A stretch of DNA of 64,000 bases from Candidatus Altimarinota bacterium (lineage in GTDB: Bacteria > Patescibacteriota > Gracilibacteria > UBA4473): positions 1 through 64,000 of the forward strand of contig JAIPIF010000004.1 in the NCBI GenBank assembly GCA_021734785.1, written 5' to 3'. Position numbers and translations under genes: made by a program. Shown piece by piece: positions 14,799-39,200 of the stretch. The notes under the pieces are model-generated. The model made no database searches and was not told the DNA's origin. It was given only the letters and a program-made list of their open reading frames with translations. Numbering within the stretch: position 1 is the stretch's first letter; every line of letters starts with the position of its first letter.

Positions 14799-15908
14799 AT
14801 GAAAACGATCGATCGAGGGCTACTGATCGCTGTGATTGGACTAACGATTTTTGGACTGGTGATGATGAGTTCGATGTCGATTGCTTCGAGTTTTGAAGTA
14901 ACGGGGAGAAATGATTTTTATTTCTGGCGACACTTCTGGCACATCATCGTGGGAATCCCGCTCTTTTTGGTCGCCCTCAACTTCCCCCTCGAAAAACTCC
15001 GAAAACTCGCAATCCCCATTTTTTTTGTGGGCATTGTTTTTCTGATTCTCACACTGGCCATCGGGACCGACTTTGGGACATCGGCCAAACTGTGGCTCCA
15101 GCTGGGGCCCTTTTCGTTTCAGCCAGTGGAGCTGACCAAGCTCGCCGTCATTATCTTTCTTGCCGCAATTTTTTCGAGTGGAAAACTCACTCCTGACACG
15201 GTGGAGGGAGGCTTTTTGCCTTTTGCTGTGGCACTCAGTATCCCCGCTCTTCTTTTGGTCATTCAGTCAGATTTTGGATCCCTACTGGTGTTAATTTTGA
15301 CTGCCGCGGCAATGTACTTTGTCGCCGGAGCAAATCTAAAGCACTTTTTTGGTGGCGGTGCTCTCCTCGCCCTCTGTGGGACAATTGTTGCTCTCGCTGT
15401 CCCGTACATCGGTCGGCGAGTCCGTGTGTTTCTCGATCCAGAGCTCGACCCGCTGAACACAGGCTTTCAGATCAAACAGGCCTTGATTGCCATTGGATCT
15501 GGCGGACTGTTTGGCCGAGGATTTCAAAACTCTGTCCAGAAATTTGACTACCTCCCGGAGGTACAGTCCGACACGATTTTTGCCGCGATTTCGGAGGAAC
15601 TCGGATTTTTTAGAATTTTGTTTCTCATCGCTGTGTACGGATTCATCGCCTGGCGGGGGTTTGACATCGCCATGAAAGCAAAAGATGCCTTTGCCAAATT
15701 TCTTGCGATCGGCATCACGACCTGGATTGTGGGGCAGGCATTTATCAACATCGGCGTGAATCTGGCACTCCTGCCAAACACCGGCATTACGCTTCCCCTG
15801 ATTTCGTACGGCGGCAGTTCGATGCTTTTCACACTGATGGCCTTGGGAATTCTCCTCAAAATTTCAGCAAACCTCCCACAAAAAAACCGCCGCCGGTGGT
15901 ATCACTGA
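14799..15908 (+). CDS. ftsW: Lipid II polymerase FtsW/RodA (SEDS family)
   Basis: SEDS glycosyltransferases polymerise lipid II during septation or elongation. The 369-aa protein has about ten TMs. It has the family motifs FSFQPVELTKLAVIIF (about 107-122), the loop LDPELDPLNTGFQIKQALIAIGSGG and the C-terminal LPNTGITLPLISYGGSSML. FtsW is preferred to RodA because murG lies less than 1 kb downstream, as in dcw clusters, but the two are hard to separate by eye. The start is leaderless. Confidence 0.9.
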   Translation: MKTIDRGLLIAVIGLTIFGLVMMSSMSIASSFEVTGRNDFYFWRHFWHIIVGIPLFLVALNFPLEKLRKLAIPIFFVGIVFLILTLAIGTDFGTSAKLWLQLGPFSFQPVELTKLAVIIFLAAIFSSGKLTPDTVEGGFLPFAVALSIPALLLVIQSDFGSLLVLILTAAAMYFVAGANLKHFFGGGALLALCGTIVALAVPYIGRRVRVFLDPELDPLNTGFQIKQALIAIGSGGLFGRGFQNSVQKFDYLPEVQSDTIFAAISEELGFFRILFLIAVYGFIAWRGFDIAMKAKDAFAKFLAIGITTWIVGQAFINIGVNLALLPNTGITLPLISYGGSSMLFTLMALGILLKISANLPQKNRRRWYH

Positions 15909-15937
15909 CGACGGTTGATTTTTGATGTGTTTGAAAA

Positions 15938-16111
15938 CTAACACATCTCTCGACAGTCTGCTGGACTTGGGGCAGAAGCATTTTCTGAAAGATTGTTGTC
16001 TCTCCACTCTTCCCATTTGTTCCACTCCTCCTGTATTTTTTTGTTGAGAGAATCGAGATCCTTTCTGTGAGAGGAATTATTTGAGCCTGAATTTTTTTCA
16101 AGAGTACTCAT
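15938..16111 (-). CDS. Small Ser/Asn-rich hydrophilic protein (57 aa)
   Basis: The frame encodes 57 residues starting MSTLEKNSGSNNSSHRKDLD, with a middle KIQEEWNKWEEWRDNN and an end CREMC. It has no hydrophobic core, so it is probably a small helical or disordered protein. No motif is recognised. It is one of four tiny polar genes in the window. It lies 109 nt after the 107-aa gene on the same strand and could share its transcript. An alternative overlapping frame reaching into ftsW is less credible. Confidence 0.45.
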   Translation of the reverse strand: MSTLEKNSGSNNSSHRKDLDSLNKKIQEEWNKWEEWRDNNLSENASAPSPADCREMC

Positions 16112-16220
16112 GTGTAAAAAAGTGATTAAAAAAATAAAAAATTATGAAAAATAACGGGGACAAATCAGCCACTCTCGTGGGAGGGGGAGCAATCGTTTTC
16201 GGTTTCGGAAAAAAGCACGG

Positions 16221-16544
16221 TTATTCATCGTCCGGGGGTTCACAAAAAGAAATCTGGAATCCAAATCTTCCCACCCGCTCTTGTATCTGGTGAAGTGTTT
16301 CTTCCGAAAGCTCTCGCACAGAAAGTTCAAACTTTTTGGGATACAAATTTTTATTTCTTCCCACCTTTTTAAACTGGTCTCTTCCGTTTCGAAAATACCA
16401 ATCAGCCGATCGTTCCTGATCAGGACGAATCCCGAGGATTTGGCGCACACGGCTGAGAACCGTCTGAAAAGAATCTTTGACGGACTCCTCCAGTGCCGCG
16501 TCATTGTCTTTGCTGGGAACGATCCAAATTTTTTGAGCTTCCAT
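16221..16544 (-). CDS. Hypothetical protein behind an attenuator-like leader (107 aa)
   Basis: The protein starts MEAQKIWIVPSKDNDAALEE and is a mixed, fairly polar alpha/beta sequence. Aromatic and basic residues dominate the middle (DWYFRNGRDQFKKVGRNK), and the end is EPPDDE. It lacks signal peptide and TM segments, so it should be cytoplasmic. I do not recognise a family. It begins 10 nt after an intrinsic terminator and is preceded by a structured leader with its own promoter (16554-16717), so it appears to be regulated by transcription termination. It is transcribed opposite to murG. Confidence 0.65.
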   Translation of the reverse strand: MEAQKIWIVPSKDNDAALEESVKDSFQTVLSRVRQILGIRPDQERSADWYFRNGRDQFKKVGRNKNLYPKKFELSVRELSEETLHQIQERVGRFGFQISFCEPPDDE

Positions 16545-16553
16545 GGAAAAAGA

Positions 16554-16580
16554 ATAAAAAAATACCGGCTGTCTGCCGGT
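16554..16580 (-). terminator. Intrinsic terminator just upstream of the 107-aa gene
   Basis: On the minus strand ACCGGC and GCCGGT form a perfect 6-bp stem (16575-16580 with 16564-16569) around loop AGACA. It is followed by A and seven T residues. The T-run ends about 12 nt before the ATG at 16544. Confidence 0.75.
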
Positions 16581-16683
16581 CTGAGCGTGTGGGAGTTTTG
16601 AATTTCAAATCATATCCTGCTCAGCCGACAGTTCGTCGAAGAAAGAATAATCTGAGCAATGATGTTTCGGCTGAAATTCATCG
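16581..16683 (-). promoter_or_regulatory. Structured leader with alternative stems (riboswitch/attenuator candidate)
   Basis: Several complementary segments lie between the predicted start near 16683 and the terminator. GAATTTCA (16672-16679) pairs with TGAAATTC (16600-16607). TCAGCCGA (16667-16674) pairs with TCGGCTGA (16621-16628). TGCTCAG (16652-16658) pairs with CTGAGCA (16618-16624). The segment CGGCTGAGC can instead pair with GCTCAG-A-CCG (16577-16586), which would tie up the 5' arm of the terminator. These mutually exclusive pairings are the hallmark of a termination-controlled leader. I do not recognise a known riboswitch class. Confidence 0.5.
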
Positions 16684-16689
16684 GGCTCC

Positions 16690-16717
16690 AGTGTACGGAG
16701 CAATGCGGGACTGTCAA
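16690..16717 (-). promoter_or_regulatory. Promoter of the structured leader
   Basis: Minus-strand TTGACA (16712-16717) and TACACT (16690-16695) are 16 nt apart. It overlaps the divergent murG promoter region. Confidence 0.65.
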
Positions 16718-16723
16718 ATTTTT

Positions 16724-16751
16724 TTGCAATTTGAAAAATCTGCCCTAGACT
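16724..16751 (+). promoter_or_regulatory. Promoter of murG
   Basis: TTGCAA and TAGACT are 16 nt apart. The second of two tandem ATG codons (16759) lies 7 nt after the -10 box, which fits a leaderless start. Confidence 0.45.
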
Positions 16752-16758
16752 CCGGATG

Positions 16759-17778
16759 ATGAAAGTCTTGCTCGTGGGAGGCGGCACCGGCGGCCACATT
16801 TTTCCACTCCGCAATCTCGCGGATGAGCTGGTCACACAAAAAGCCGATGTCGAACTTCTGGTTGCAGAGGCACCACTGGATCGCCGGATTGCCAAGCAAA
16901 ATTTCTCGGACATCACCACCCATTTTTTGCGTACTGGAAAAATCAGGCGGTATTTTTCTCTCAAGAATTTTGTTGCACCATTTATCATTCTACAATCAAT
17001 TTTTGCTGCGCGAAAAATCCTGCGAAAAAACAAGCCTGACGTTCTTTTTTTCAAAGGAGGGTTTGTGGGATTTCCCATTCTCGTGGCAGCGAAACTCTTT
17101 GGATTTCGGGGAAAGATTGTTTCCCACGAATCCGACATCTCCCCCGGCGCACTGACGCTTTTGGTACGAAAATTTGCCCATCAGCATTTCGAAAGCTTTG
17201 GAAAAACACCGACTCCCCTCTTTTTTGAGACAAAGAAAAAAACCGCACCCAAAAAGGCTTCTCCCACTCCCCCGGGCGGAAAAATTCTTTTTTTGGGTGG
17301 CTCTCAGGGAGCAAATTTTCTCAACATTCTCTGCAAAAATCACGTTCGGCAATTGGTCAAAACTCGTCATGTCACTGTCATTACTGGGGTGGGAAAAGCT
17401 GTAAATTTTCGCCACAAAAATTTTGAACAGTATGAGCTCCTCCCCGCGGAAGAACTTTCCCGTCGCCTCAAACACGCAGACCTCGTAATTTCTCGAGCAG
17501 GAGCCAACACGCTGTTTGAAGTCATTGCCGCCAAAAAGCCCAGCATCGTCATCCCCCTTCCCTCCTCTGCACGAAATCACCAATGGAAAAATGCGCAATT
17601 TTTTGCGCAAAAAAATCTCTGTCGGGTTTTCCCCCAGAATTCACGTAAGAGCTTTCTCAAGGCCGTCACTGCCGCCCAAAAAGATCACCAGATGAAAACC
17701 GCACTCCAAAAAAGTCAGATCAAAAATGCCGCCGGAAAAATTGCCGAAACCATTTTGAATTTTGAGAAAAAAAACTAA
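16759..17778 (+). CDS. murG: UDP-GlcNAc:lipid I GlcNAc transferase MurG
   Basis: MurG adds GlcNAc to lipid I on the cytoplasmic face of the membrane, giving lipid II. The 339-aa protein begins with the Gly-rich loop LLVGGGTGGHIFPL. It has FFKGGFVGFPILVAA, HESDISPG and LFLGGSQGANFLN (the second Gly-rich loop, about 175-187). The donor-site motif SRAGANTLFEVIAAKKPSIVIPLP follows near 242-265, all typical of the family. It is somewhat short and Lys/Phe-rich. A start at 16756 is equally open, but the promoter spacing favours 16759. dnaX follows 12 nt later, with its own promoter inside the murG end. Confidence 0.93.
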   Translation: MKVLLVGGGTGGHIFPLRNLADELVTQKADVELLVAEAPLDRRIAKQNFSDITTHFLRTGKIRRYFSLKNFVAPFIILQSIFAARKILRKNKPDVLFFKGGFVGFPILVAAKLFGFRGKIVSHESDISPGALTLLVRKFAHQHFESFGKTPTPLFFETKKKTAPKKASPTPPGGKILFLGGSQGANFLNILCKNHVRQLVKTRHVTVITGVGKAVNFRHKNFEQYELLPAEELSRRLKHADLVISRAGANTLFEVIAAKKPSIVIPLPSSARNHQWKNAQFFAQKNLCRVFPQNSRKSFLKAVTAAQKDHQMKTALQKSQIKNAAGKIAETILNFEKKN

Positions 17779-23052: not shown

Positions 23053-26000
23053 TTAGCGTTTTGGAGAGGATTCCTGCACGGAAATATCTCCCCCATGGGG
23101 GACAAAGAATTCTGCCAGTACGTGATCCCCTTCTCCCAAAATTTCAAAAATCATTGGATCCGAAACCGTCTTTGCTCGTTTTGCCCGAAGAGAAACGCTG
23201 GGCGACTGTACATGAAAATTCCCAAACCGATCCAGTACTCCCAAGGTTTCCTGCATTCGCTCATCGACGAGTGCCGCCGATCCGGAAAATTTTGATTTTC
23301 GCTCTCCCAAGGATTCCCAAATAATAGCATCGGATTCGTTGCGATCGAGCACCTGCACCCCCCCTGTTGGAGCGGAAGTTTTTCCCTCCAGTGCCGTCCC
23401 ACGAATCAAAGAAACCGGCTCAATTCCCTCATTTTTTTGGGTGATCGTAGCCACTGTTTTCCCCGTTGAATCCTGAAGACGTATCTGCTGTGCTCCTTCT
23501 TTTTCGGCAGGAAAAACCGCGGCCGAGAGCAAGTCTGATTCGAGCAAAACTCGTCCACGAGCCGTCACTTCTCCTACTTTTTTGCCGGTTTCGGTTTCAA
23601 AAATCTCGACGCTGCCACCAGCAGAAGGATCTTCAAACTCAAAGACTCCTTGCGCATCGGTCTGCACCGATATCGGCAAAATGATTTCTCGTCCTTCGCG
23701 CTCTCGCTGAAACGAAATGATTTGCTCTGCCAACGGCGTTATCAACTTCCCCAATATTCGACCATCTCGTTCTGTGACTTCCATCAGTCGCGGCGTCGGA
23801 GCCTGGACAGAGAGCGAAAGAGACTCCACTGCTTCATTGCCCGAAAGATCTGTGACCGAAAGCGTCAACTCCATTTCGATGGGGCGTTCTTGGGGGGACA
23901 GTTCTATCTGAAGGGCTTTTCGTGGGTTTTGAAACACCGAAGGAAATTTTTCTCGGTTTCCGCTGTCAAGCAGGACCGTCTCTCCTCGGCGCCACACGAC
24001 ACGAGCAAATCCTTGCTCATCGGTCGTCTGCGTAGCATCGAGCTCGATGGGCTCTCCCAAAAATGCACGAAGTCGCGTCCCCTGCGCAAGTGTAATTTGT
24101 GGCGGGGTCGTATCATCTGCTCGCTGAGGATCGTGGAGAAGTTTGTGAATGTGATAGCTAGGATCCGATCCATCAAACCCCGTAAACAGGCCGTAGTGAT
24201 TGCCAGGAGGCAATGATTTGAAGTGCGCCAGCGCCTCCTCCTTTGTGTGAAAGAGATGGAGTTCGTAGGTTTCCCCTCCCGCAATTTCCTTTTCGGTTCC
24301 ATCAAAAAGTGTCAACACCACCCGATCCCCATCCCCCACCTCTAGACGCAGGTCATGAGCAAAATAGCCTCCCGCTGCCGCTTCCAGTTTTTGGAGCGTT
24401 CCAGGATCAGCGTACTGGACTTCGCCACGGGTCAGGCAGACTTCAGCGTAGTCGACAACAGTCTCCTCTCCGGCCCGGAGATCGATCTCTCGTCGCTCCT
24501 GCTGCTGACCAGGACGCGGCAGTGTTTGGATGATGAGTCGTGAATGTGCTGCTCGTCCCACAAAGACCGTTTCTTCGGCAAAAAATGGCTTTTCAGTTTC
24601 TGGAGCCAAACAGGCGTCTGAAGAGAGCAGCGGGAGTGTCTGCACCGATGCCCCGTACAAAATCGGCGATCCCTCGACCGTTGAAATCATTGAGGATACC
24701 GGGCGAATTTCATATTTTGCTGCCGGTGGACGCATGAGAAACGCAATGCGTTTTCGATGCTCCGACACCTTTTGTTTTGCCGGCATACTCGTCTCAAAAA
24801 TCTGATCCGGGCGCTCCGAGACTTCCCACTCGTAGTAGTTCAAATCTTTGTGAAATGGCGGAACAAACCGAACTGTCGCTCCGGCCGCAGAAACGGTGTT
24901 TTCAAAAGAAAATGTCGGCGCAAATCCAGCAGAAAATTCTTCAAAACTCATCGGGACAAACGCATCCATCGGAGCGGTGTACTCCTGATCCTTGATCTCC
25001 TGTGAAAAATTGGGCGCTGCTCGCCGTTTGAGATACAGCTCTTCTCCCACGGCATACCAAATCTCTTCTGTCCCATCTCGCTCGACATCTGCTAGTGTCC
25101 AGGTGTGGGACTGCGTCGCCAAATTGAGTGGAGTGATGGATTGGCTCGCTGCGGTCTCTGGATCAAAGAAAATCAGAGCCGGTTCGGGCTGGAGCTCGCG
25201 ATTTTTTTCGAGTTGCTCCTCGGTGTCGAAGTCATCAGGAATCTGGGTCGGAATGTCACTGGGATCGATAAAATCGGTGGAGACCACCCAACGCTGTTGC
25301 TGTGGCGAAAGCGCGGTCCACACCGGCGGCTGAGAGAGAAACGCCGTGAGGGTTTCTTGCTGGTGGGGAGACACCGATCGCGGCGTCTGCCCGAGCGCCG
25401 TAAAAAATTGTTCGAGCCACTGGGTGGTCTTTTCCTGGGAAGGCGTGAGGGCTGAGGCTCCGTCAAAAAACGTCACGATCCCTCCCCCAATATCAACTCC
25501 CTGAACGTCGTCGATGGACGGAATCTCTGTGGCCGGAATAACCTGCTCTGGAGAGGTCTCGTCAACAGAGGACTCACGAACTGCCGACTCCTGCTCGGCA
25601 CGCTGAGTCTTTTGGGTGGAAAAAATTACCGGCTCTGCAGAGGGGGAACGAGCCGATGTCTCTGTCTCGCTCACAGGAGACGTCTCTCCCGACTCTGTTG
25701 GCTGAAGCGAAGAGGGAGCCTCTTCGGTGGAAAACGACGAATTCTTTTTTTCCAGAGACGCAGAAGCATCTGTTCCATTTTCGTTTGAGAAATCTGTCTC
25801 CGAATATCCGGCACCCTTTTCTGTCGCTTGTGCGTTGGTGCCAAACTCTGAACCGGATCCAGAATCCGAAGAAGCATTCGAGCTAGATCCTGAACCTGAA
25901 CCTGAACCCGAACCGGAGCCCGAGCCCCCATTCCCCGTCGAACCGTTTTGGCCTTCCACCACCAGTGGCTCGCCTTCGGTGGCACAGGGCTGGAGATCTT

Positions 26001-29000
26001 TTGCGCCTTTTGACCGCGCATGCATCTGCTCGAGGACACAGGTCATTTTTTGCTGAATTTGATCCACCTGCGCATTCACAGAATCAAACAGTCCCTGCTG
26101 CAACGATTTTTCGAGACGCAGCATTACCTCAGAGGAAGAAACATCCGCGCTCATGCGCAACCCGACAAATTCCTCCGGCACAACGTCTGGGGTGGATTTG
26201 AGAGAAGAAAGAAGTGGGTTGGTGATACCGCTGGTTGAGGGCGGTTTTGGCAGCGAAAGAGACATCGCCGAGGGCACCATGTCCATCGGGAGAAGTGCTG
26301 TACGATTGGTCAGTGCCACCACCTGAGACGCCAGTTTCCATTCGGGAACGGGGATGATCGCGCCATTGAGCAGACAGAAAAAATTGAGCAGCGCTTTTGG
26401 GATCGTCAAAATCGACTGCAGCAACTGCAGAAAATTTGGGAGCTTCGGTGGCTCAATCAGCGTGGGCAGGGTCGGCACTCCCACAGAGAGATTGGGAAAT
26501 TGCAAGAGCGATTCAATGGGCGGCACAGGCGGGAGTGGCGGCACGGGCGGAATTGCCTGAGAGAGGGCTTCCATTCCAATCATTTCCAGAGATTGCAAAA
26601 GCTCCTGCACCGCCTGGTCAAAGCTTTGTGCGAGGAAGTTTTCTAGAAATGCAGCGAGCGATTGGGAAAAAGTTCCGTCCAAAATCTGCTGCACGAGAGA
26701 GGAAAGCATGTCAAATGTCATCGACAGGGCCACGATGCTCTGTCCAATCTGCTGGGCAAATGCCTGCATCATTGCGGCTACATTTACCTCTTGCAATGAG
26801 GGCAGTTTGGGGACGGCGAGCTCCACCGGCTGAAAAGAAATCTGAGGGATTTCCACTTCCATTCCGATTTTGACACGGCTGAGATCAAAGGTCACATCCG
26901 GAATCTGTGGTGCAGGAATAACCGGCAACTTGATGCCCGAAAGAAGCATCCGCAAGAGCCATTCCTCCAGCGTTCCCCGATTGACGGGACAGGTACCACA
27001 GTTTTGAGTGAAGCCACGGAAAATCTCCGGAATCGATTCCCAGAGTGACATGAGCTGATTGAAGTTTTGCCCAAAACGCTCCCATTTTTCGACCGCTCGT
27101 TGATTTTTTTCGCCCCAGTGTGCCCAGTATTCGTCCAAAAATTCATTGGTTTCGTCGATCTGTACCGTCAATTGTTTGAGCTTCAGGGGAAGTTCTTTGA
27201 GGTTTTTTCCAGCCTCGTGGTATGAAACTAACGCATCCATATTTTTCTCGATGGACACCATCTGGGTTTCGGCTTTGTCGATAAAAGTATCGACGGCTTT
27301 GGTCTGCTCCATTGACTGGGTCAGGGCTTCCTGTCGTGCGGCTTCGGCGTCCGGATCCTCTGCGCCCATTTCTGCTGCCAATGCCTGTGCTTCGGCCTTG
27401 CGTTCAGCCGCTTCGGCCGCTCGTTCTGCCGCTTTTTCTTCTGCTTCTGCCTGACGACCTGTCTCCCGTTCTTCTGCACTGTTTTGAATCGCTTCTCGTT
27501 CGGCTTCGCTCTCGGCCTGTGCAATTTTTGCTGCGTCCAGCTGATCCCAGAGGGCAAGAATGGTTTCCTGCTGAGCCGTTTCGGTTTGTTCGATCTGAGA
27601 AACTGCTTGCTGTGCAGCTGCGACGGCTGAAGCCGCCTCGGTGAGTGCTGATTCGGTTTGAGAAAGAATTTGCTGTGCCGAATCGCTGAGGAGTGAATCG
27701 GCGGCTCCTTCCAGTTCTGCTTTTTCTTCGGCAAAGAGTTCCTCTAGCAAGAGAATCTGATCGGCGGCCTCCTGCAACCGATCCACCACTCGCAGGGTTT
27801 GATCGTGCTGCGCTTCCCATTCCTTTTCCAGTGCCGAAATTTCCTCTTCTGCTTCAGCGAGTTCTCTTTCTCCTGTTTCAATGCTGGCAATCGTTTCGCT
27901 CGCTTCTGAAATCTGGGTGGCAATGTCTCGTTGTTCCGTAAAATTCTGATGTGCCTGCTGAAGTTCTGTGGCAAACTGATCATAAAATTCAGCCCGAACT
28001 CCAATTTTTTTCACACGAAAAAGGGTCGTGAGTCCCACCCCGCCTCCGGAAGCCGTATCACAATTTCCTTCATCTTCGGGGGCGCCCGCCTGCCAGACTC
28101 CCTCCTGGACAAGCTCACAGTCGGTACGACGAATGGATTTTTTGGTAGTGTGTTTCCAGGCGTCAAAGTCTTCGCGCCAACGCTCAAAATCCCTTTTGGC
28201 ACGGTCGATCTGAACTTTTGTAAAGCTCGGATACGGCAAAGAAACCGGACGTTTCTTGACCGCAACAAAGGGAGATTGTTCCAGACGACGCAGTGTTTTT
28301 TGGAATCCATCATCCTGCGCCATCCGGTATGTCCCCGGCGTCTGACCCGTCTGGACCATGGACGGCTCCGGCAGCGGCGGTTTCTTTTTGGGAAAAGCCG
28401 GTAAAATCATTCGAAAGCTCGGGAGACGGATTGTGTTTAGTTCTCGCAACTGCTGCTGCACCCACATGGTGATAATGTCGGCGGCAGAGATTTGTATGTT
28501 GTCTGGCTTGGCCACTGGTGTCGGAGAAAACGAACCCAACTGGAGCCCGTTGCCCGCAGCAAACATCGACTGCAGCGCCTGCCGAGCAGCCGCATCCGCA
28601 TCTGAAGCCCCAGAAAATCCACCCGGACAGGCGCCCAGGAGTTCCAGGAGAGGCGGAACCACGACGAAACACATGGAAGGATCCGGAAAAGGAGACCCCG
28701 TCGCCAGCATGGCCGGATTACTGGCATTCGGGTTGAGGCAAAATCCCAGCCCCACCTGAGCGGTCGTCGTCGGCATCACGTACAGCCGAAACTGCGAGGT
28801 CGGCATCGGCCCCGCCCCGACAAAAGGCGGATTGGGCCCCACCCAGAGAAGTGGCGCTCCCGGAGAGGGCGGCATCGGAAATCCAAACGGCGGGATGTAC
28901 AGCGACTGTGATCCCGGTGCCAAAAAGGCATATGACGGAATCGGCAGACCACAGTTTCCTCCACACTTGGCTTCATTGAGAGCCGCATCGATGGACGAAG

Positions 29001-32000
29001 TCTGATAGTATGGCGGCAGGGCTGAAGCCGTTCCATCCGTGTCTTTGAGCGTTTCCAAAATTTCTTCTGCCTGAGCTTCGGCATCAAAATCGGAGGGAAA
29101 ATTTTCGCCAAACGCATCGACGATCTCACGAGTATGTGTGGGCAGTACGAGAGACAACCGTGTGTCATCGGTCACATTTTCTGGATCCCCCGCTTCTGGA
29201 AAGCTGTGCGGTGCCTGATCGGATCGGAACCGAACAAGTTTTTTGGTGTCGTCGATTTCCCAAGCAACCGCCACATCATCGATTCCATCATTCCCGAGAA
29301 AATCAAAAGCCGAAAACGTGATCGGCGGCACTTCCTCGGTCTCCAGCTGCCAGGAGACCGTTCCTGTTTGCTGGGGAGAGAGATCAAATCCAGAAAGAAG
29401 AAATCCATTTTGACCCGCATCTACAGAAATATCTGCGGTTTCTAGGCTGGTCGAAAGCGAGTCCTCTTGCAGCGAAAATCCCGCAAACAACGGAATCCAG
29501 AGGCGAAAGTTTTCCAACGGTTCTGTCGAGGTGAGAGAAAGCGCTGCCTGCATCTGATCCCCCGGCTCGATGGTATTTTTGTTTCCCGCAAGAGAGAGAG
29601 AAAGACGGGCATCAAACACCTTATTCTCAGAAATGCGCAAAAAGTACTCGCCTCTCACGGTTTCCAGTCGATCGGTAAAAGTCGAATCCTCCACCCCGTC
29701 AAATGCCGCGAGCATCGTGGAGAGATGAGGGAAGGTTCGACGATCGAGTTTGTCTTCCTGAAGGCTCTGGTACGCGGCAAAATCATAGTCTTCCGAGAGG
29801 GGAACAAACGACGGCGCAAACTGATCAAGTTTTTGCACAGCAAAAAATCCGTTCGATTCGATATCAAACCCCGGGTCCTCGTCAGGCTCCAATTCTCGAC
29901 CGTAGCTGAAGTAAAGGGTGTTGGTCTCATCGAGGAGAATCAGATCTTCAAAAGCATCGCCATTCAGCTGTGCCGTTTGGACACGCAAGAGCGGATGCGG
30001 GATCCCCAGGTCCAAATATTCCCGGGTAAAGGTACCGTTTACATTTTTATGAAAGACGAGCTCTCCGGCATCATTCACCTGCAAAATCCAAAGCAGATCG
30101 CCCCAGCGATTGCGATACACATCCGTATCGTGCACCCCATCGGCAAATCGCAAGAGTGGTCCCACCGAGCGAAAATTGTCCTGCTCGTGTGAGACCTGGT
30201 ACAAAAGCTCTAGCGTTCGTCCGGTGCGCGCCATCACTTCTGATCGCTGGTCGCGATTGATATCCGCAACCAAAATTTCATCGATGGGGCCGGCACGACT
30301 TTTCCAAATCGGCTGTCCTACATCCGGCGGAATGTCGAGAGAGGAAGCGGCATTTTCTGTCTGAACCGAGAGGGTCGGATCTCCCAAAACAATCACGGCA
30401 TCCGAAGCGCCCCATTGGGTCGCCTCTCCCACCGATGATCCTGCGGCAAACAGCGTCGCCGGTTTCCATGCCGTTTCCCAACCCACCGAACGATCGATGT
30501 CCACATCCTCGGCAGAAAACTGCGGACTCCCGAGACTTTTTTGTGCTGATTCGGTTCGGGTTCGAGAAAAAAGCCCCACCCCCTGAGGATCACGCGTGGA
30601 GCCCCCTCCCCAGCTGAGAGCGACTTCGACTTCTGGAGAAAGCGATTGTATTTCCACACTGGCAGAAGAAAAACTCTCAGAAAGTGTCTCCACAGGCGAG
30701 AGGGTGAGAGACTCCAGCGCGATGGAAAGTTGTCCAAGTTTTTGCCCACGAAAGTACACCTCCCAATCCCAGAGCGAGCCTTCGTGCGGAAAGAGCTGAA
30801 CTGCGTTTGAAGCAAGGGACAATCCCCCGCCTGGCTGCAACGTCCAGAGCGGAAAGTCTCCGTACGAAAAGAGTCCTTTTGTAAGCGAAAACTCCGTGAT
30901 CGGCATTTCTGGCGCAAAGTACAAACCGGGTTTCTCCTTTTTTTGCGCACCGATAAAGAGCGTCGGGGAATCAGGAAACAACACACGCATCCGAGCCATT
31001 CGGCCGAGCGAACCCAAAATATCGGCTTCAAAAAACTCACCGGCGTGAAAAACATGCTGTGCCTGAGACAATTTTCCCTCCGCAGAAATCTCTCCCAGCA
31101 GTCGAGCCGGGCTGGGGTCAGAAATGAGTGTCGCCACCGCCTGAGTCTCTCCGTCGAAAAGGAATCGAGGCCCCAGAGAAGGCGCGTCCCATTTGCCGCC
31201 AGCAAATCCCAGCAGAAGCGTAAACAAAGAGGTCGGCGCCAGAGACTGAAAATCACTGCGTGCCAGCACCTTCGTGATCTGAAATTCAAAGGTTGCCGGA
31301 GCGATTTTGTCTTCCCCCGAAATGCTCGCAATCAAAAACCCTTTGCCGTGCTGCCCGTTGGAATAAATTTTGGCTTCTCCCGCTCCAGCAGAGAGAGAAA
31401 CATTTGCCGGTTCTAGACGGGCAAAATCCGAAGCTGTCTGTGATTGGCCTTCGGCAATTTTGTCATCGAGAAACGCCTGCAGTCCTGCATCGCCTTCGGA
31501 AATCATTCCCAATTCCTCCAGCGTTTCTCGATCCTGTGCCGTGACGGTTTCGGGCGGATTGAGCGTGAGCGATACTTTTTTCTGAAAGTCAGAGACGAGA
31601 TTGCCAAATGAATCCGTCACCCGCACCTGCAGATGGATGGGATTTGTCTGGGCAGAATTGAGCGTGGTTTTGTCCGGAATGAGTTCGATTTGGGTGGCCT
31701 CGCCGGCAGAGATTTCGAGCGAAAACTTCACGGGCGGAATCCCGGGAGCCGAGAGTCTCACGGTCGTCTCCCCTGCCTGTGTCCCCGCAGAAACGGGAAG
31801 AATTCCCATTCCATCCTGAAGGGAAAATGTCTCGGGGAAGATACCCACATCCTGCGGATCGGTGTGGACAAAAAGTTCTTGTTTTCCTGTCAGCAGTTCT
31901 CCCGCTGCATCCCGCAACTCAATCGGAATCTCCAGCAACTCTTCATCTCCAGCGGAAAATTTGGTCTCCGGAATCTGGAACGAAATCGGCGGCTCGGAAA

Positions 32001-35000
32001 CGCGACGAAAATCAATCCCAAACGCACGACCGGAAATCGATTCGGGCAACCACACCGCCAGATCAAATTGGTCTTTTTGGGACAGGGGCACACCCTGCAA
32101 TAAACGGGAACGGCTGCCGGCGGCAGCGGCGGTACTTTTTTCAGCGGTGTCCTCTGCGTCTTGAAACGAGGACCCTGTTTCTTTTCCGGCTTTTGAAACG
32201 GCGTCGCTCGTTTCTTTTTGTGCGGAGAAGTCGGAGGCCTGCTGCTCATCGTCTTTGAAAGATTCTTTTGGGGAAGTTTCACGTCTCGCCTTTTCTTCTG
32301 AGGAAAGGGGTGTGGAAGCTGTTTCTTCCGTTTCTTTTTTTGCCGGCTCCAATGAATCCACCAACGGATGATCATCAAACGATGCCGCTACTCCGTCAAT
32401 CACGGCATTGAAAAGCAGTGGGCGCAACGCGGAGAGAATCGATTTTCCGCGGGCAGAATCCGCAGGTGTTTTTTTTGAAGAAGCATCTGGAGCTGCATCG
32501 ATGGCGGGGATTTCCTGTTCAAATTCAGACGAACGGTTCAACGAGTTTTCTGTTTCTGCAGCGGGGGGGGCAAAGCGTTCCGGGGAAACCTGATCGGAAA
32601 TTTCTGTGTCTGAAAGTTTTGATTTTGCTGGCTGACTGCCGGCTTCTCTTTCTGCTGCCGATTTTTCTTGGCGAATCTTTCGGAGAAAAGACGGCACGGC
32701 TTCTTCTATCCGGTCGAGAAAGGGCTCGTCAAAAGACTCCCCCACTCGCACCTGACGAACCGATGGATCGCCTGTTTTTTGGAGTTCGAGTGTTTGTGCC
32801 CCCCACTGGAGAGCCGCCGCCAAGTCTGGATGCGGATTGCCAAAGCTGTCCTGCACCTCGGCCGTCACAGAAATCCAGTCTCCATCGACAATGAGGTCGG
32901 TCGCCTCAGGTGTCAAAACAATATTTGCTGGCGCATCGGGCACGATGTCAAAAAAGAGTTCTGTCGCTGCCAGGGGCAGATTTGTGTCCTGCGGTGTGAT
33001 GGAAACCGATGCCTCTCCTGCCACGGTCCCCGCGAGAAATGAAACCGATGCCTGTCCATCAGAGATGGAAGCAGTAGTCCCCTGTGGAAACAGTCCCCAG
33101 TCAGAGGAAAATTCAATGATTTCTCCCTCAAATTCTCGAGAAACGGTCTTGGTTTCATCCAAAACGGAAACCTGCACCTCCATCGGCTCCAGTGAACCAG
33201 CCGTCAACTGAAATTCCGAAGCCGTCGGTTCCAGTACAAACCGTGCTACACGCACGTCCAGCATGTCCGGATTTAAATCGGTGGACGCAAATCGGAGCGC
33301 AAATTTTCCCCCTACGTCACTGGTTTTGGGGAGGAGAAAAAAGGTCGCCTCTCCTCCATCGGCTCTCACAGAACGATCGGGAGAAACCGTAAAAAATCGG
33401 AGAGCGTCTGCCGAGAGCACTTCCAGGTGGACCGGCGTCTGAAAATCGGTTTCGAGTTTTTCGCCGTGTTGATCGAGGATTTCCACAACCACTTTTTTGG
33501 GCAACGTGTCCTGCGTCCCGAGAGAAAGAGAGTCTGGCAAAACACGAAGGCTCGTGGCAACTCGCTCTTCGTCTGGGGAAAGGTGTCCCGAGACGAGTGT
33601 GGTTTGGGAGGTGTCAGTGGCAAAATCGGAAAAATCTGATACGCCAGACCACGGCATTTCTGCATCAAATTTTAGGGGAGAAATTTCGGGAGTGATCTGA
33701 GAAATTTTCCCAAAAAAATCGGGGAGCTCCACCAACCACGGGATCAGACACTTCACCGGCCAGGCAAGCAAACTCGCATCCGAACAATCGGAAGATTCGG
33801 AAACGGTTTTGTTTGGATCGGCTTCGGTTCCTTCGCCCAAAACAGCGGTGCTAAATTTTTTATCCAAAAACTCCAGCGTGTCGGGGTCCGCTCCTAGTGC
33901 AACGGCGGCTTCTTTTGCCTGGGCAGTGCGAACGGTGTTATTGGGCGTCTCATCGCCGCGCTCAAAAGCAATTTCAATACTTCCTGCCGGCGTGGTTTCG
34001 GCTTCGTGACCGATGATCTCGATCAATTCATATCCCCGGAAATCCTGATTGCGAAGTGCCCGACGGCCTGCCGACCCCGAAGAAAGTGCGCCCGTAAACA
34101 TTTCAATGTTTTTGGTTTCCAGATCTTTGCCCAGCCACAAAATCGCTTCCTCCAGCTCTGATCGGTTGTACGTAGAAAACACCGTGTCGAGTAACTCAGC
34201 ATCCAGAGGGGTCCCTCCACCAGCCTGAGAGAGAATGGTGTTGATCTCAGAAATTTTGGCATCCAAAATCTGGTCGATCTGGGTTTCAATTTGGGATTCT
34301 GTCAGTCCCTGCTGATGGAGGGAAAAAAGGTCGGGAAACGTCACAAACTGAAAACTGTCGGCCTGATCATAAAAAGAAAATCCGTGCGGATCATCGATCG
34401 GCATGGCATTGGTAGACATTTCCTGCAGCTGCGCACGAATGGTGGAAATCGTCGGCTCGTTGTGGAGCATGAGCGATGGGATGGTGTTGGTCATTCCGAC
34501 TTCTTCTGTGTCCGTGAGAAAAGAGGCACAACCGCTCGCCCCTCGTGAGCCGGTGAAGACTTCTCGCGTCCCGCCCAGGTCAAAAATTGGTTCCGTCGGG
34601 CCGTGATGCTCCCAGTCCAAGGGGGGCAACAGAAGGGCACATTCCCATGCTCCAATTTCATTGCATTCGGGTTCCCAGTACGATCCTGAGCTACAAACAT
34701 CGTTTGTAATGACAAAGTCATCACCGATATCGATATTAATGGCACAACACCCTTCGTATACATCCATTTCTTTTTCCAGATTGCTGGCCTCCTCCCATTC
34801 GACACAATCCTGCAACGGACGGAGTAGTCCTTCATCAGCCGTGGAAAATTTGTACGCCCGATTGGCTTCGACCATCTGTGACATCGGGGAAGCAGTCGAA
34901 CGCGGTGTCCCGCGCAAAAGCGTACAGTCCTCGGGGCCGTCGATATCCATCCGGTTGATTCCATTCCAGTACAAATCTTTGGTGTAGGTCGTCACCGGTA

Positions 35001-36180
35001 CGTACGGCGGACCGGCAAGCAGTGTGTACTCCTGCTTGGCCTGGAGAATGATGTCTTTGTGGAGATCAGAAGCCTGCACTGCCTCCCAGAGGACTGCTTC
35101 AAGGGCATCATTCACCGATTTGATCAGCTCCGCCGCCCATTGATCTTTGCGGGAGACGAGAGAAATGGTGGTGTCGACTTCCGACGGCTGCCAACGCCCC
35201 GTACGGTCGGCACGGGTATTGAGTTGCTCGAGCTGATTGCGCGCGGCTTCAAAATACCGCTTGGTCATATTTTCAATAATATTTTTGGTGTGGACATCCG
35301 GCAGTCCGCCAAACGAAAGCGCTGTCGACTCATCTGGCCGCAGGTCTTCGTCGAGGATTTCTGGGGGGATGAGTTCTTCAAAATCGGTGTCGCCAAATAA
35401 ATCCTCAGCCCAGTGCTTGCTAAATCGCAGATACAAAATGTCATCCACATGATCGATCCAGTTTTGGTAGTGCTGCTTGAGTTCGACAGAAAGTCCCTCG
35501 CGCTGTCGCGGCAGATCGGCAAAAAATATTTTCTCTGGAAATTCCTCTTTTCCCTCGTGCACCCGATGATTGCGCTGAAAATATTCCCGCAATTCTTGGG
35601 CTCGAGAATCAGTATCGACCCGGTCAGAACGAATCACCCCGTGCCAGATTTCCGGCTCGTGATCCCCGTCCTGCCAGACGAAATGTTCTTCTTGCGGATC
35701 CCAGGCGTACACCGGAGATTCAAAATCCACATACGGAAAAATCGTCGGCCACCGACGGCCGTTTTTTTCAACCACAGGGAGGGGAACATCACCGATGAGA
35801 ACGGTCCCAACCAGCTGCGAGCGTTGATCATTTTCAAGACCGGAAAAAAACAGTTGTGCATTTCCTTCCGCGATTTCAAACACCGACGCGTCGGCGGGGA
35901 TGGGGATCAAAATGGCGCGGCCATTGACGGCAGATTGCACATCCATCGCGTAGCGCTGAATCTTGTCCGTGAGATCTCCATCGGACAATAAGGTTTCTTC
36001 GACAAGAACAGAAACCAACCGTACCCGTTCCACCTCCGGCGGCGGCGTGAAGGAGGCAAACGGCGTGCTTGCATTCCAGGAGGCCGCCTGGACGCCAGGA
36101 GCAAATACAGAAAATCCCATCGAAAAAAGCACCAGTGCACTGATGATTTTTTGAGAAATTTTTCTGTGCAAAAAATGCAT
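23053..36180 (-). CDS. Giant secreted multidomain surface protein (4375 aa)
   Basis: A signal peptide (residues 1-32, ending PGVQA) leads into an N-terminal domain with LIGDVPLPVV (near 127) and a Cys cluster (about 473-513). Invasin/Ig-like beta domains follow (about 880-1130 and 1390-1540), separated by a Ser/Glu/Lys-rich low-complexity stretch (about 1175-1350). FG-GAP/VCBS-like motifs (ADINRDQRSEV near 1970, LNGDAFEDLIL near 2070, FLGNDGIDDVAV near 2292, DVERDGTEEIWYAV near 3695) suggest propeller repeats. A Pro-rich block (2417-2520), a long Ala/Glu/Gln coiled coil (about 2740-3010), a Gly/Ser linker (about 3413-3443) and a PKD-like domain (about 4020-4110) complete it. No sorting signal or C-terminal TM is seen. 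It is probably exported by Sec and displayed or released; the role is unknown. The reading frame is uninterrupted over 13 kb. Confidence 0.8.
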   Translation of the reverse strand: MHFLHRKISQKIISALVLFSMGFSVFAPGVQAASWNASTPFASFTPPPEVERVRLVSVLVEETLLSDGDLTDKIQRYAMDVQSAVNGRAILIPIPADASVFEIAEGNAQLFFSGLENDQRSQLVGTVLIGDVPLPVVEKNGRRWPTIFPYVDFESPVYAWDPQEEHFVWQDGDHEPEIWHGVIRSDRVDTDSRAQELREYFQRNHRVHEGKEEFPEKIFFADLPRQREGLSVELKQHYQNWIDHVDDILYLRFSKHWAEDLFGDTDFEELIPPEILDEDLRPDESTALSFGGLPDVHTKNIIENMTKRYFEAARNQLEQLNTRADRTGRWQPSEVDTTISLVSRKDQWAAELIKSVNDALEAVLWEAVQASDLHKDIILQAKQEYTLLAGPPYVPVTTYTKDLYWNGINRMDIDGPEDCTLLRGTPRSTASPMSQMVEANRAYKFSTADEGLLRPLQDCVEWEEASNLEKEMDVYEGCCAINIDIGDDFVITNDVCSSGSYWEPECNEIGAWECALLLPPLDWEHHGPTEPIFDLGGTREVFTGSRGASGCASFLTDTEEVGMTNTIPSLMLHNEPTISTIRAQLQEMSTNAMPIDDPHGFSFYDQADSFQFVTFPDLFSLHQQGLTESQIETQIDQILDAKISEINTILSQAGGGTPLDAELLDTVFSTYNRSELEEAILWLGKDLETKNIEMFTGALSSGSAGRRALRNQDFRGYELIEIIGHEAETTPAGSIEIAFERGDETPNNTVRTAQAKEAAVALGADPDTLEFLDKKFSTAVLGEGTEADPNKTVSESSDCSDASLLAWPVKCLIPWLVELPDFFGKISQITPEISPLKFDAEMPWSGVSDFSDFATDTSQTTLVSGHLSPDEERVATSLRVLPDSLSLGTQDTLPKKVVVEILDQHGEKLETDFQTPVHLEVLSADALRFFTVSPDRSVRADGGEATFFLLPKTSDVGGKFALRFASTDLNPDMLDVRVARFVLEPTASEFQLTAGSLEPMEVQVSVLDETKTVSREFEGEIIEFSSDWGLFPQGTTASISDGQASVSFLAGTVAGEASVSITPQDTNLPLAATELFFDIVPDAPANIVLTPEATDLIVDGDWISVTAEVQDSFGNPHPDLAAALQWGAQTLELQKTGDPSVRQVRVGESFDEPFLDRIEEAVPSFLRKIRQEKSAAEREAGSQPAKSKLSDTEISDQVSPERFAPPAAETENSLNRSSEFEQEIPAIDAAPDASSKKTPADSARGKSILSALRPLLFNAVIDGVAASFDDHPLVDSLEPAKKETEETASTPLSSEEKARRETSPKESFKDDEQQASDFSAQKETSDAVSKAGKETGSSFQDAEDTAEKSTAAAAGSRSRLLQGVPLSQKDQFDLAVWLPESISGRAFGIDFRRVSEPPISFQIPETKFSAGDEELLEIPIELRDAAGELLTGKQELFVHTDPQDVGIFPETFSLQDGMGILPVSAGTQAGETTVRLSAPGIPPVKFSLEISAGEATQIELIPDKTTLNSAQTNPIHLQVRVTDSFGNLVSDFQKKVSLTLNPPETVTAQDRETLEELGMISEGDAGLQAFLDDKIAEGQSQTASDFARLEPANVSLSAGAGEAKIYSNGQHGKGFLIASISGEDKIAPATFEFQITKVLARSDFQSLAPTSLFTLLLGFAGGKWDAPSLGPRFLFDGETQAVATLISDPSPARLLGEISAEGKLSQAQHVFHAGEFFEADILGSLGRMARMRVLFPDSPTLFIGAQKKEKPGLYFAPEMPITEFSLTKGLFSYGDFPLWTLQPGGGLSLASNAVQLFPHEGSLWDWEVYFRGQKLGQLSIALESLTLSPVETLSESFSSASVEIQSLSPEVEVALSWGGGSTRDPQGVGLFSRTRTESAQKSLGSPQFSAEDVDIDRSVGWETAWKPATLFAAGSSVGEATQWGASDAVIVLGDPTLSVQTENAASSLDIPPDVGQPIWKSRAGPIDEILVADINRDQRSEVMARTGRTLELLYQVSHEQDNFRSVGPLLRFADGVHDTDVYRNRWGDLLWILQVNDAGELVFHKNVNGTFTREYLDLGIPHPLLRVQTAQLNGDAFEDLILLDETNTLYFSYGRELEPDEDPGFDIESNGFFAVQKLDQFAPSFVPLSEDYDFAAYQSLQEDKLDRRTFPHLSTMLAAFDGVEDSTFTDRLETVRGEYFLRISENKVFDARLSLSLAGNKNTIEPGDQMQAALSLTSTEPLENFRLWIPLFAGFSLQEDSLSTSLETADISVDAGQNGFLLSGFDLSPQQTGTVSWQLETEEVPPITFSAFDFLGNDGIDDVAVAWEIDDTKKLVRFRSDQAPHSFPEAGDPENVTDDTRLSLVLPTHTREIVDAFGENFPSDFDAEAQAEEILETLKDTDGTASALPPYYQTSSIDAALNEAKCGGNCGLPIPSYAFLAPGSQSLYIPPFGFPMPPSPGAPLLWVGPNPPFVGAGPMPTSQFRLYVMPTTTAQVGLGFCLNPNASNPAMLATGSPFPDPSMCFVVVPPLLELLGACPGGFSGASDADAAARQALQSMFAAGNGLQLGSFSPTPVAKPDNIQISAADIITMWVQQQLRELNTIRLPSFRMILPAFPKKKPPLPEPSMVQTGQTPGTYRMAQDDGFQKTLRRLEQSPFVAVKKRPVSLPYPSFTKVQIDRAKRDFERWREDFDAWKHTTKKSIRRTDCELVQEGVWQAGAPEDEGNCDTASGGGVGLTTLFRVKKIGVRAEFYDQFATELQQAHQNFTEQRDIATQISEASETIASIETGERELAEAEEEISALEKEWEAQHDQTLRVVDRLQEAADQILLLEELFAEEKAELEGAADSLLSDSAQQILSQTESALTEAASAVAAAQQAVSQIEQTETAQQETILALWDQLDAAKIAQAESEAEREAIQNSAEERETGRQAEAEEKAAERAAEAAERKAEAQALAAEMGAEDPDAEAARQEALTQSMEQTKAVDTFIDKAETQMVSIEKNMDALVSYHEAGKNLKELPLKLKQLTVQIDETNEFLDEYWAHWGEKNQRAVEKWERFGQNFNQLMSLWESIPEIFRGFTQNCGTCPVNRGTLEEWLLRMLLSGIKLPVIPAPQIPDVTFDLSRVKIGMEVEIPQISFQPVELAVPKLPSLQEVNVAAMMQAFAQQIGQSIVALSMTFDMLSSLVQQILDGTFSQSLAAFLENFLAQSFDQAVQELLQSLEMIGMEALSQAIPPVPPLPPVPPIESLLQFPNLSVGVPTLPTLIEPPKLPNFLQLLQSILTIPKALLNFFCLLNGAIIPVPEWKLASQVVALTNRTALLPMDMVPSAMSLSLPKPPSTSGITNPLLSSLKSTPDVVPEEFVGLRMSADVSSSEVMLRLEKSLQQGLFDSVNAQVDQIQQKMTCVLEQMHARSKGAKDLQPCATEGEPLVVEGQNGSTGNGGSGSGSGSGSGSGSSSNASSDSGSGSEFGTNAQATEKGAGYSETDFSNENGTDASASLEKKNSSFSTEEAPSSLQPTESGETSPVSETETSARSPSAEPVIFSTQKTQRAEQESAVRESSVDETSPEQVIPATEIPSIDDVQGVDIGGGIVTFFDGASALTPSQEKTTQWLEQFFTALGQTPRSVSPHQQETLTAFLSQPPVWTALSPQQQRWVVSTDFIDPSDIPTQIPDDFDTEEQLEKNRELQPEPALIFFDPETAASQSITPLNLATQSHTWTLADVERDGTEEIWYAVGEELYLKRRAAPNFSQEIKDQEYTAPMDAFVPMSFEEFSAGFAPTFSFENTVSAAGATVRFVPPFHKDLNYYEWEVSERPDQIFETSMPAKQKVSEHRKRIAFLMRPPAAKYEIRPVSSMISTVEGSPILYGASVQTLPLLSSDACLAPETEKPFFAEETVFVGRAAHSRLIIQTLPRPGQQQERREIDLRAGEETVVDYAEVCLTRGEVQYADPGTLQKLEAAAGGYFAHDLRLEVGDGDRVVLTLFDGTEKEIAGGETYELHLFHTKEEALAHFKSLPPGNHYGLFTGFDGSDPSYHIHKLLHDPQRADDTTPPQITLAQGTRLRAFLGEPIELDATQTTDEQGFARVVWRRGETVLLDSGNREKFPSVFQNPRKALQIELSPQERPIEMELTLSVTDLSGNEAVESLSLSVQAPTPRLMEVTERDGRILGKLITPLAEQIISFQREREGREIILPISVQTDAQGVFEFEDPSAGGSVEIFETETGKKVGEVTARGRVLLESDLLSAAVFPAEKEGAQQIRLQDSTGKTVATITQKNEGIEPVSLIRGTALEGKTSAPTGGVQVLDRNESDAIIWESLGERKSKFSGSAALVDERMQETLGVLDRFGNFHVQSPSVSLRAKRAKTVSDPMIFEILGEGDHVLAEFFVPHGGDISVQESSPKR

Positions 36181-36274: not shown

Positions 36275-39200
36275 TCAGGCGTCCATTCCCAAACCACCTT
36301 CTCCTGCATCCCCCTCTCCGCCACCACGCGTCTCCTCCATGCCGGGCGGCAGGTCAAGCCCAGGGCGGCCCATTGAGGCTCCCAGTTCAAATTTTCCCGC
36401 ATGAAACATCCGCTGGAGCTGCTTCCAGACAAGGTCTTTGTTTCGAAACATGGCGTCTCCCTCGGTTCCCTGGATGAGGGATTCTACTTCTTTGTGCACT
36501 TTTTCGGTCCGTTCTCCTTTTCCCTTGGGATCCAATCCTTCCTTTTTTCCGTTGAGGGACAAAAGGTAGCCGTATTTGGAATCCATTTTACTTTCTCGAA
36601 GAAATCCGCCCATAAAATCATGGACCATGTCTCGGATTACCGAAGCGCGAGAAGAATAATTACTGTCAAATTCCCATTCCTCGTCGGTAAAAGTCAGGCT
36701 TCCGTGATTGCCGGTGGTGAAGTTTCCAAGCAATGTCTGCACCGTCGCAAATGCTGCACGAAGCCGGTCCCCCACTTCGAGAATCATTTTGTCTCGTTTC
36801 TTTTGCCAGCGAGGATTTTCTCCGTACTGCTGGTCTCCATCGCGGATGATCTGGTACGTCTGCTGAAAGAAAAGGCGATATCCATCCAAAAATCGACGCC
36901 AAAAGTCGGTCGTCATTTTTTCTTTCTGCGAAGACTCCAGACTCAGCGAACGATTGACATCGTTGGTGGTAAATTCTGCCGAAAAGGCCTGCGCATCATC
37001 GTGATCAAACTTTGCCTGGGCTCCACGCACCGCACGGCGGACACGTCCATTGGCAGTTGGCGACTGGTGGATCACATCGTAAAAGAAACGAATCATGTTG
37101 GAATTCCCTGGTTCTTGTCGCACATCAAACGTCCCATTGGAATCGCCCAGCATCTCTGCCCACCCCAAATAATCCTCGTACGTCCATCCGCCTGGATGAG
37201 CGCCGGGCGTTCCCTCGGGAACAATGCGTCCATTGAGTTTCCAGGACTCTTTATCGGCAAAGAAATCCACATGCGGAAACAGGTACAGATATTCTCGGTT
37301 CATGCGCATCAGTACGTTGCGAGAAAGCAGTGGTTGTCCCTGTGGATTGCGACACGCAGCCCCCTGGATCAGGAACCAAAATCGCTGATCCGGCTGTCCG
37401 TTCATTTTTCCTGCGGCAAATGAATGCCAAATGAAAGCCTCAAAGCGAGCGGGGTCAACATTGGTCATGTCGCCCCGTTTCCAGCGACGGAGCATGTCTG
37501 TGAGAATTGCCGATCGGGCCTCGTTGTCATCTTCGTAGCTGCTAAATTCCATTTCATACGAATCGATGACCGATTTGAGCTTCTGAGGCATGCTGGTCTC
37601 CCACTCGCGAAATACCTCTTTGGACCAAACAAATTCAGCCGCATTCCGCACTTTATCGAGAATTTCTTTGTAGCTGAGCGTCTCCAGATCTCGCGGAGAA
37701 AAACGTTCGAGCGGTGGTTTCTGTTGCAATCGCTCCAGCGTTTTCCAGAGCTCAGGGTCATCCCATTTGAGATAGCCTCGTTCATTGAGCAAATTGATAC
37801 AGGCACGCGCTTCGTCGGCATCGTTACTTTTGTAGAGTCGATTTTTGATCGTCCATCCCTCCTGATCATGGTACTGCTGCTCAAATTCTTTGATACGCTG
37901 GGTTTCGGATTCCTCCAGTTTTCGGCGGAAATCTTTTCCCCATCCAGATCCTTCGCCAAAGAACTCTGTCCCCAGAGCCCCAATGGCTCGATCTGATTTT
38001 CGCTTGTGCCGGGTGTCATTGATCTCCACTGCCTGTTTGACCAGCGCATAAATATCGTAAAATGAAAAACGGGTATAGTTGTGCTTGAAGCGCGGCTGGT
38101 TCTTTTGTTTGTCGTATTCTGCAATCCACGTGTCAAATTCTGCCGCTGTTTTTTTGGCCTGCTCAGCGGTGTCTCCCAGTCGCTGAAAATCCCCAAGCCG
38201 TTCCAGTGCTTCGGCCCTGGCTTGATCGGATTCTTCGTATTTCTGCAGCCAGTCGGAGAGAAATTTTTGATCCAGAAATGGCTCAGCCTGCGAGCGGAAT
38301 CGAGCAGACTGATCCCGATGAAGCTGCAGGTTTTCTTCGATAAATTCTTTTTCAAATCCGTATTTTTGATAAAAGTCTTCCGTGTTCAAACTTCGAGCAT
38401 CCTTGCGAATTCTCCGCTCGATGGACCGCAGATTGTCTTCATAGTCTTTGAAGTGTTTTCGGTACGCGGCACGGATGGATTCAAACCGTTCACGAAATTT
38501 TTCTTTGCCCGCAGTCGTGTCAGAGAAAAAATCATTGCGTTCGAGAAAACCGGTCGCACGCTGTGATTTTTTAAACGATTCGTCCCAAGCATCAACCTCA
38601 TTGGCCATGTCGCCGTTGCGAAAATCCAAAAACGACTGGATGACCTGAAACTGTCGAGGAAAAACTTTCCAGAGAGATTCACGACCTGTGAATTCAAAGT
38701 CCCGTTTTTGTGCTTCTGCAGAGAGCGTATCAAACGCCTCATCGAGCTTTTTGATGGCCTGTGTGGGAAAGCGGAGATAGGTTTCGATAAAATTGTGTGG
38801 AGCAGATTCTGCAGGAATCACTGCCTCCATGATCGATCCCATTTCTCCCAAGAGATGCTGCAGCTCTCCTCGCATCTGAGGCCAGTCTTTGAGAATATCT
38901 CGCAGCTGTTCTTTTGCGCGGCGTCCCTGGAGGTATCGTTCTTCTTCATTTTTTTCCTGAGACATTCGACGATACATTTCTCCAATCTCTGAAAGTTCGA
39001 CTCGAAATTTTTCTGAAACCTGTTTGACTCCGTCAGTCACGACACTGGACTGAAGCGCGAGTTCTTCCAAAATTTCTCGCCCGGGCAGCCAAAATTTATT
39101 TTCTTTTCCTTCGGGCGTAAGTTCCGAAATATTTCGGCCGTGAAGGTATCCCTCTCGTTGGTACGCAAAAGTCCGTTCGAGTTTTTTTGCCTCAGCGATC

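Follow-up and report, generated by a model that had tools for sequence, protein, structure and literature searches.

A possible transcription attenuator upstream of an orphan gene in an uncultivated member of the Gracilibacteria

Background

Does the unusually long interval between ftsW and murG in one Gracilibacteria genome hold a leader that decides whether the gene behind it is transcribed, and if so, what would such a leader respond to? The question arises from an earlier note on this DNA, which proposed a riboswitch or attenuator on the minus strand ahead of a 107-codon open reading frame (ORF107). The window analysed here comprises bases 1-64000 of contig 2 from the 1.06-Mb draft genome of an uncultivated member of the Gracilibacteria, and the controls combined this window with six 20-kb stretches of the genome (184 kb in total). 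The literature on how such reduced bacteria regulate genes at the RNA level is sparse.

Alternative folds of the leader

The intrinsic terminator of the minus-strand leader (ACCGGC-AGACA-GCCGGT followed by seven T residues; 16557-16580) and the ATG downstream of it at 16544 both lie where the earlier note had placed them. The self-complementary leader that the note described folds into a rod (16600-16679), in which the proposed outer stem of GAATTTCA (16679-16672) and TGAAATTC (16607-16600) encloses an inner stem of GCTCAG (16657-16652) and CTGAGC (16624-16619), the latter being the upstream pairing of CTGAGC type already suggested there. This fold is better than those of dinucleotide shuffles (z = -2.7, and z = -3.0 in a second calculation); when random segments of equal length were drawn from the window, about 1.7% reached a z of -3.0. 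No further copies of the terminator core were found in viral contigs.

A downstream pairing that would compete with the terminator had been placed at 16577-16586. The pairing is present in the sequence and competes in the folding calculations, but it is longer than noted, joining the 5' arm TGTCGGCTGAGC (16630-16619) to the 3' arm GCTCAG-A-CCGGCA (16586-16574) in a helix of 12 bp with one bulged A. This alternative helix takes up nearly all of the terminator's 5' arm and competes with the rod as well, so that it may be regarded as a candidate anti-terminator, with GCTCAG at 16657-16652 as the predicted anti-anti-terminator arm that masks it in the rod. Its energy of -23.5 kcal/mol was reached by none of 2000 dinucleotide shuffles of the leader. 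When scored against shuffles it ranks first among the 52 terminator-like sites of the window (z = -4.74; next -2.89) and first among 69 such sites in 184 kb (z = -4.72; next -3.38). The claim that it is an outlier rests on this shuffle-corrected score, because by raw energy it is only second of the 52 window sites. The second-best outlier in the larger set (z = -3.38) is a terminator, GCGAG-CAAGAAT-CTCGC, with an upstream complement on the minus strand of contig C1 at about 161558.

Energies and shuffle controls thus support the mutually exclusive stems that had been proposed ahead of the terminator, with exclusion of the terminator by the anti-terminator being complete before the terminator is finished and partial afterwards. 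In stepwise equilibrium folding the rod dominates at 87-102 nt (0.99), the anti-terminator is fully formed at 111-117 nt (1.00), and from 120 nt onwards the terminator appears (at least 0.95) together with the rod. Terminator and rod also dominate the full-length leader (0.96). The anti-terminator state is 4.2 kcal/mol less stable than the minimum. The modelled order of rod, anti-terminator and terminator is that expected of an attenuator with termination as the default.

Structures of this kind may also be incidental, if a recently gained stretch carries inverted and direct repeats (GCTCAG twice, CTGAGC once) that fold by chance beside an unregulated promoter and terminator. The locus is indeed unique and unconserved, the region was chosen for its appearance, and within the window a fold z of about -3 is no rarer than 1 in 60. 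However, the anti-terminator (z = -4.7) tops 69 sites and is accompanied by the best promoter and by a gene-like ORF, and we consider a chance fold unlikely.

A leaderless-type promoter and a 23-codon ORF

The promoter reported for the minus strand is present at its place and is near-perfect, with TTGACA (16717-16712) and TACACT (16695-16690) separated by 16 nt and 10 of 12 positions agreeing with the sigma-70 consensus. Among 44 promoter-like sites in 184 kb it is the only one that combines a complete -35 box (6/6), a TACACT -10 box and a short ORF at leaderless distance. The promoter of murG (TTGCAA-16-TAGACT, plus strand, 16724-16751) stands back to back with it, and in a relative of the same genus a TTGAGT-16-TACACT promoter was read from the sequence 8 nt ahead of the murG ATG.

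Leaderless initiation looks common in this genome, since the ATGs of ORFs of at least 100 codons cluster 7-10 nt past a TANA(A/C)T box in the 184 kb; distances of 7, 8, 9 and 10 nt are represented by 12, 6, 3 and 3 cases, respectively, and most other distances by about 1-3. A full-text literature search returned incidental mentions only and no published account of leaderless starts in Gracilibacteria, and nothing for "candidate phyla radiation" combined with leaderless and promoter. Elsewhere on the minus strand of the window, two giant ORFs are adjacent (23053-36180, 4375 codons; 36275-41749, 1824 codons), the second of which carries a leaderless-type promoter, TTGACA-18-TACACT.

The leader itself opens with an ORF placed in the same manner. 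Although the earlier note recognised no leader peptide, a 23-codon ORF, MNFSRNIIAQIILSSTNCRLSRI, runs on the minus strand from an ATG at 16681 to a TGA at 16610, and its start lies 8 nt past the -10 box, a spacing that fits the leaderless rule of the genome and makes it a candidate leader peptide, if it is translated. At 10 promoter-like sites an ATG follows at 5-10 nt; nine of these ATGs open ORFs of 156-1824 codons, and the sole exception is the 23-codon ORF of the leader. Isoleucine occupies its codons 7, 8, 11 and 12. Four isoleucines within 7 codons were met in none of 20000 coding samples, while random DNA of matching composition showed them in 0.8% of cases. The cluster was, however, picked post hoc, and an equal density is reached by some amino acid in about 10% of random cases. 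Codon use of the short ORF is not gene-like.

Two ways in which the 23-codon ORF might belong to a longer product were discarded. Reading through one TGA would lead into a 120-codon frame (16504-16142), which scores -0.237 in codon use, next to a null of -0.229. As for a frameshift into ORF107, that frame is closed by the TGA at 16607-16605, which lies past the stop of the short ORF.

The orphan gene and its setting

The minus-strand leader and ORF107 lie between the plus-strand genes ftsW (14799-15908) and murG (16756-17778), which are separated here by 847 nt (15909-16755). In all 15 relatives with an intact junction the spacing is 3-102 nt, and the leader and ORF107 region is absent from the junction in each of them. 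The nearest relative, from the same genus, has a gap of 63 nt and a MurG identity of 61%. An interval of this kind may reflect either an addition in this lineage or loss elsewhere. Given 847 nt here against 3-102 nt in the relatives, the minus-strand unit (the leader, ORF107 and perhaps the ORF57 described below) would most simply be an addition in its own lineage. A 10-nt inverted match (15889-15898/16785-16794) was considered as the ends of a mobile element and rejected, as it falls within the coding sequences of ftsW and murG. A perfect hairpin, GATGTGTT/AACACATC (15917-15944), separates ftsW from ORF57 directly after the stop codon of ftsW and has no T-run behind it on either strand.

ORF107 (16221-16544, minus strand) has no Shine-Dalgarno sequence and is probably a real gene, because its codon score of 0.082 exceeds the wrong-frame null (-0.229, s.d. 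0.123) and is just under the minimum of trusted genes (0.087). ORF57 (15938-16111, minus strand) is a possible second gene of the unit and is uncertain, with a codon score of -0.084, about one null s.d. above the null mean; no homologues of it were found in 144 other genomes of the class.

The protein that would be controlled had been called unknown in the earlier note, and ORF107 indeed fits no family in Pfam, NCBIfam, PHROGs or PADLOC. No homologues were detected in 98 relatives or the genome collection, in 352 other genomes of the class (where one match at E = 0.0099 with an internal stop was put down to chance), in 379 others from the phylum, or in viral contigs and plasmids. The sole phage match, to a tail tape measure protein of a Klebsiella phage (E = 0.05, 30% identity), was likewise regarded as chance. 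Matches to polyubiquitin (E = 2.6e-9) were set aside as the sum of repeats; no single stretch passes, and di-ubiquitins reach about 0.15. A single-sequence structure model (pLDDT 68.7, pTM 0.60) suggests a ferredoxin-like arrangement. Searches with this fold gave at best a Foldseek E of 0.009, to a designed protein, and Z scores up to 5.9, some of the matches being ACT-type domains; these are too weak for naming a family. ORF107 shows no link to isoleucine and matches no family.

A model for control and its rivals

From its sequence and modelled folds, we tentatively interpret the leader as a transcription attenuator of the orphan ORF107, probably one that works through a leader peptide, and we give this interpretation somewhat less than an even chance. 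RNA polymerase would start near 16683 and a ribosome would load at the 5' AUG of the 23-codon ORF. A ribosome pausing at about codons 5-15, where the isoleucines at 7, 8, 11 and 12 lie, would cover GCTCAG at 16657-16652 and free 16630-16619, which could then hold the 5' arm of the terminator and let polymerase read into ORF107. A ribosome that reaches codon 17 or beyond would instead cover 16630-16619, the terminator would form and an RNA of about 125 nt would be released. Rod and terminator should also prevail if no ribosome has loaded. Whether the signal would be slow translation at the isoleucine codons or slow translation generally is a guess.

Masking of the ribosome footprint in the folding calculations bears on this model. 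With the ribosome at codons 5-15 the anti-terminator can form while the 3' arm of the terminator is still unmade, the competing arm is also covered from about codon 6, and a ribosome at codon 17 or later blocks the anti-terminator. The switch point therefore lies between codons 15 and 17, with the isoleucine codons on the anti-terminator side, and this modelled pattern matches classical attenuation, for which the isoleucine codons would be suitably placed. Against the model, the GCTCAG half of the anti-terminator is compatible with the finished terminator, which for this reason keeps a probability of at least 0.61 at every ribosome position, and control would consequently have to be kinetic.

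The strongest rival is a standalone sRNA gene, complete with promoter and terminator, that yields an RNA of about 125 nt, while ORF107 is expressed through low read-through or a weak separate promoter; it ranks first among the rivals because read-through into ORF107 is only predicted. Promoter, compact rod and terminator make up a complete sRNA gene, the dominance of terminator and rod at full length (0.96) suits such an RNA, and independent sRNA terminators are a known source of false positives for attenuators (PMC2965389). However, this reading leaves both the anti-terminator outlier and the AUG at leaderless distance unaccounted for, and no good separate promoter serves ORF107, whose ATG is preceded at 6 nt only by a TATTCT that lacks a matching -35 box. 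We regard it as somewhat unlikely.

A further candidate is control by a ligand that favours one of the two states, either in a riboswitch or through binding of a protein, for example ORF107 itself, to the leader. The 4.2 kcal/mol between these states is within the range that ligand binding could bridge, the rod contains internal loops, and the ORF107 model resembles the ferredoxin-like fold, among whose members are RNA-binding and ACT domains. Yet the match to this fold is weak (Z of 5.9 at best), no aptamer could be defined, and a second copy of the leader turned up neither in the genome nor in 98 relatives. The earlier note had recognised no T-box or known aptamer, and the leader has no match in Rfam either: at gathering score the 64-kb window holds no family except a tRNA, and among matches with E up to 10 in 16400-16800 there are only chance-level snoRNA and CRISPR models. 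We judge this alternative distinctly unlikely and see no evidence for a new riboswitch class. Of the two possibilities that the note had left side by side, the attenuator is favoured and the riboswitch is unsupported, as the short leaderless ORF with its isoleucine-rich stretch suggests that a leader-peptide attenuator is the more economical explanation.

Known structured RNAs were also considered. The leader does not match 6S RNA (RF00013), and the 6S-like RNA of this genome sits elsewhere (C1:178755-178912; 43.9 bits, E = 5.9e-8, just under the Rfam cut-off of 46.4), with similar sub-threshold matches in six relatives. Models of SRP RNA (RF00169 and RF01854) gave no match at E = 0.001 in 21 genomes of the class Gracilibacteria, 17 of them at least 90% complete, while controls were detected; the SRP RNA of these 21 genomes seems to be either very divergent or missing. 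That the leader might itself be an SRP RNA was set aside only on the grounds that it is unconserved and has no Rfam match.

The stems were not seen in related genomes, from which the whole leader region is missing. Among all genomes searched, ORF107 and the leader are confined to this one, which leaves no homologues that could show covariation of the stems or conservation of the peptide. Attenuation of ORF107 is a plausible best single explanation, and the lack of relatives prevents a stronger claim. A broader proposal is that of a lineage-specific sensing leader in Gracilibacteria. It might represent a new class that senses a ligand or a protein and controls an orphan protein of ferredoxin fold, or else a leader-peptide attenuator of leaderless type; we judge this proposal distinctly unlikely. 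The literature search returned no description of a leaderless leader-peptide attenuator in the candidate phyla radiation. If the device works, it would show the first AUG serving as a built-in sensor of translation in a genome dependent on leaderless initiation, but its reach is limited, the locus being a single unconserved case ahead of an orphan gene.

Comparison with known systems

Type III toxin-antitoxin loci of the ToxIN kind have the order promoter, structured RNA, terminator and gene, and this order is common to the present locus. Such an assignment was rejected here, as there are no tandem RNA repeats in 16600-16680 and ORF107 has no Pfam or PADLOC match (ToxN, CptN, TenpN). The locus also resembles the 5' terminators and attenuators predicted in many bacteria in having an intrinsic terminator between promoter and ORF (PMC2965389). 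The sensing parts of attenuators are diverse and evolve fast, and a terminator in 5' position may be that of an independent sRNA; the survey removed sRNA terminators by synteny, which is inapplicable to an orphan locus (PMC2965389).

In mycobacteria, leaderless cysteine-rich upstream ORFs have been proposed as attenuators (PMC4633059). As in that group, the short ORF here would be a leaderless first cistron, and leaderless initiation seems common in the genome that carries it. The mycobacterial peptides are conserved and precede cysteine genes, whereas the present one is isoleucine-rich, unconserved and followed by a gene without family. Later work on the mycobacterial leaderless cysteine-rich ORFs was reportedly carried out by Canestrari et al. 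in 2020.

The closest described case, and a direct precedent, is the ilvBNC attenuator of Corynebacterium glutamicum, in which the AUG of the leader peptide MTIIRLVVVTARRLP lies one nt from the transcription start and three overlapping hairpins share arms (PMC11857589). There the operon encodes enzymes of isoleucine and valine synthesis, and the peptide is conserved and has been tested, in contrast to the unconserved leader described here, which is known from sequence alone and precedes an orphan gene. Both leaders nevertheless have an AUG at the transcription start, which is predicted in the present case, and a short ORF, here a candidate, for a peptide rich in branched-chain amino acids, and in both the anti-anti-terminator, anti-terminator and terminator share arms and a short terminated RNA is to be expected.
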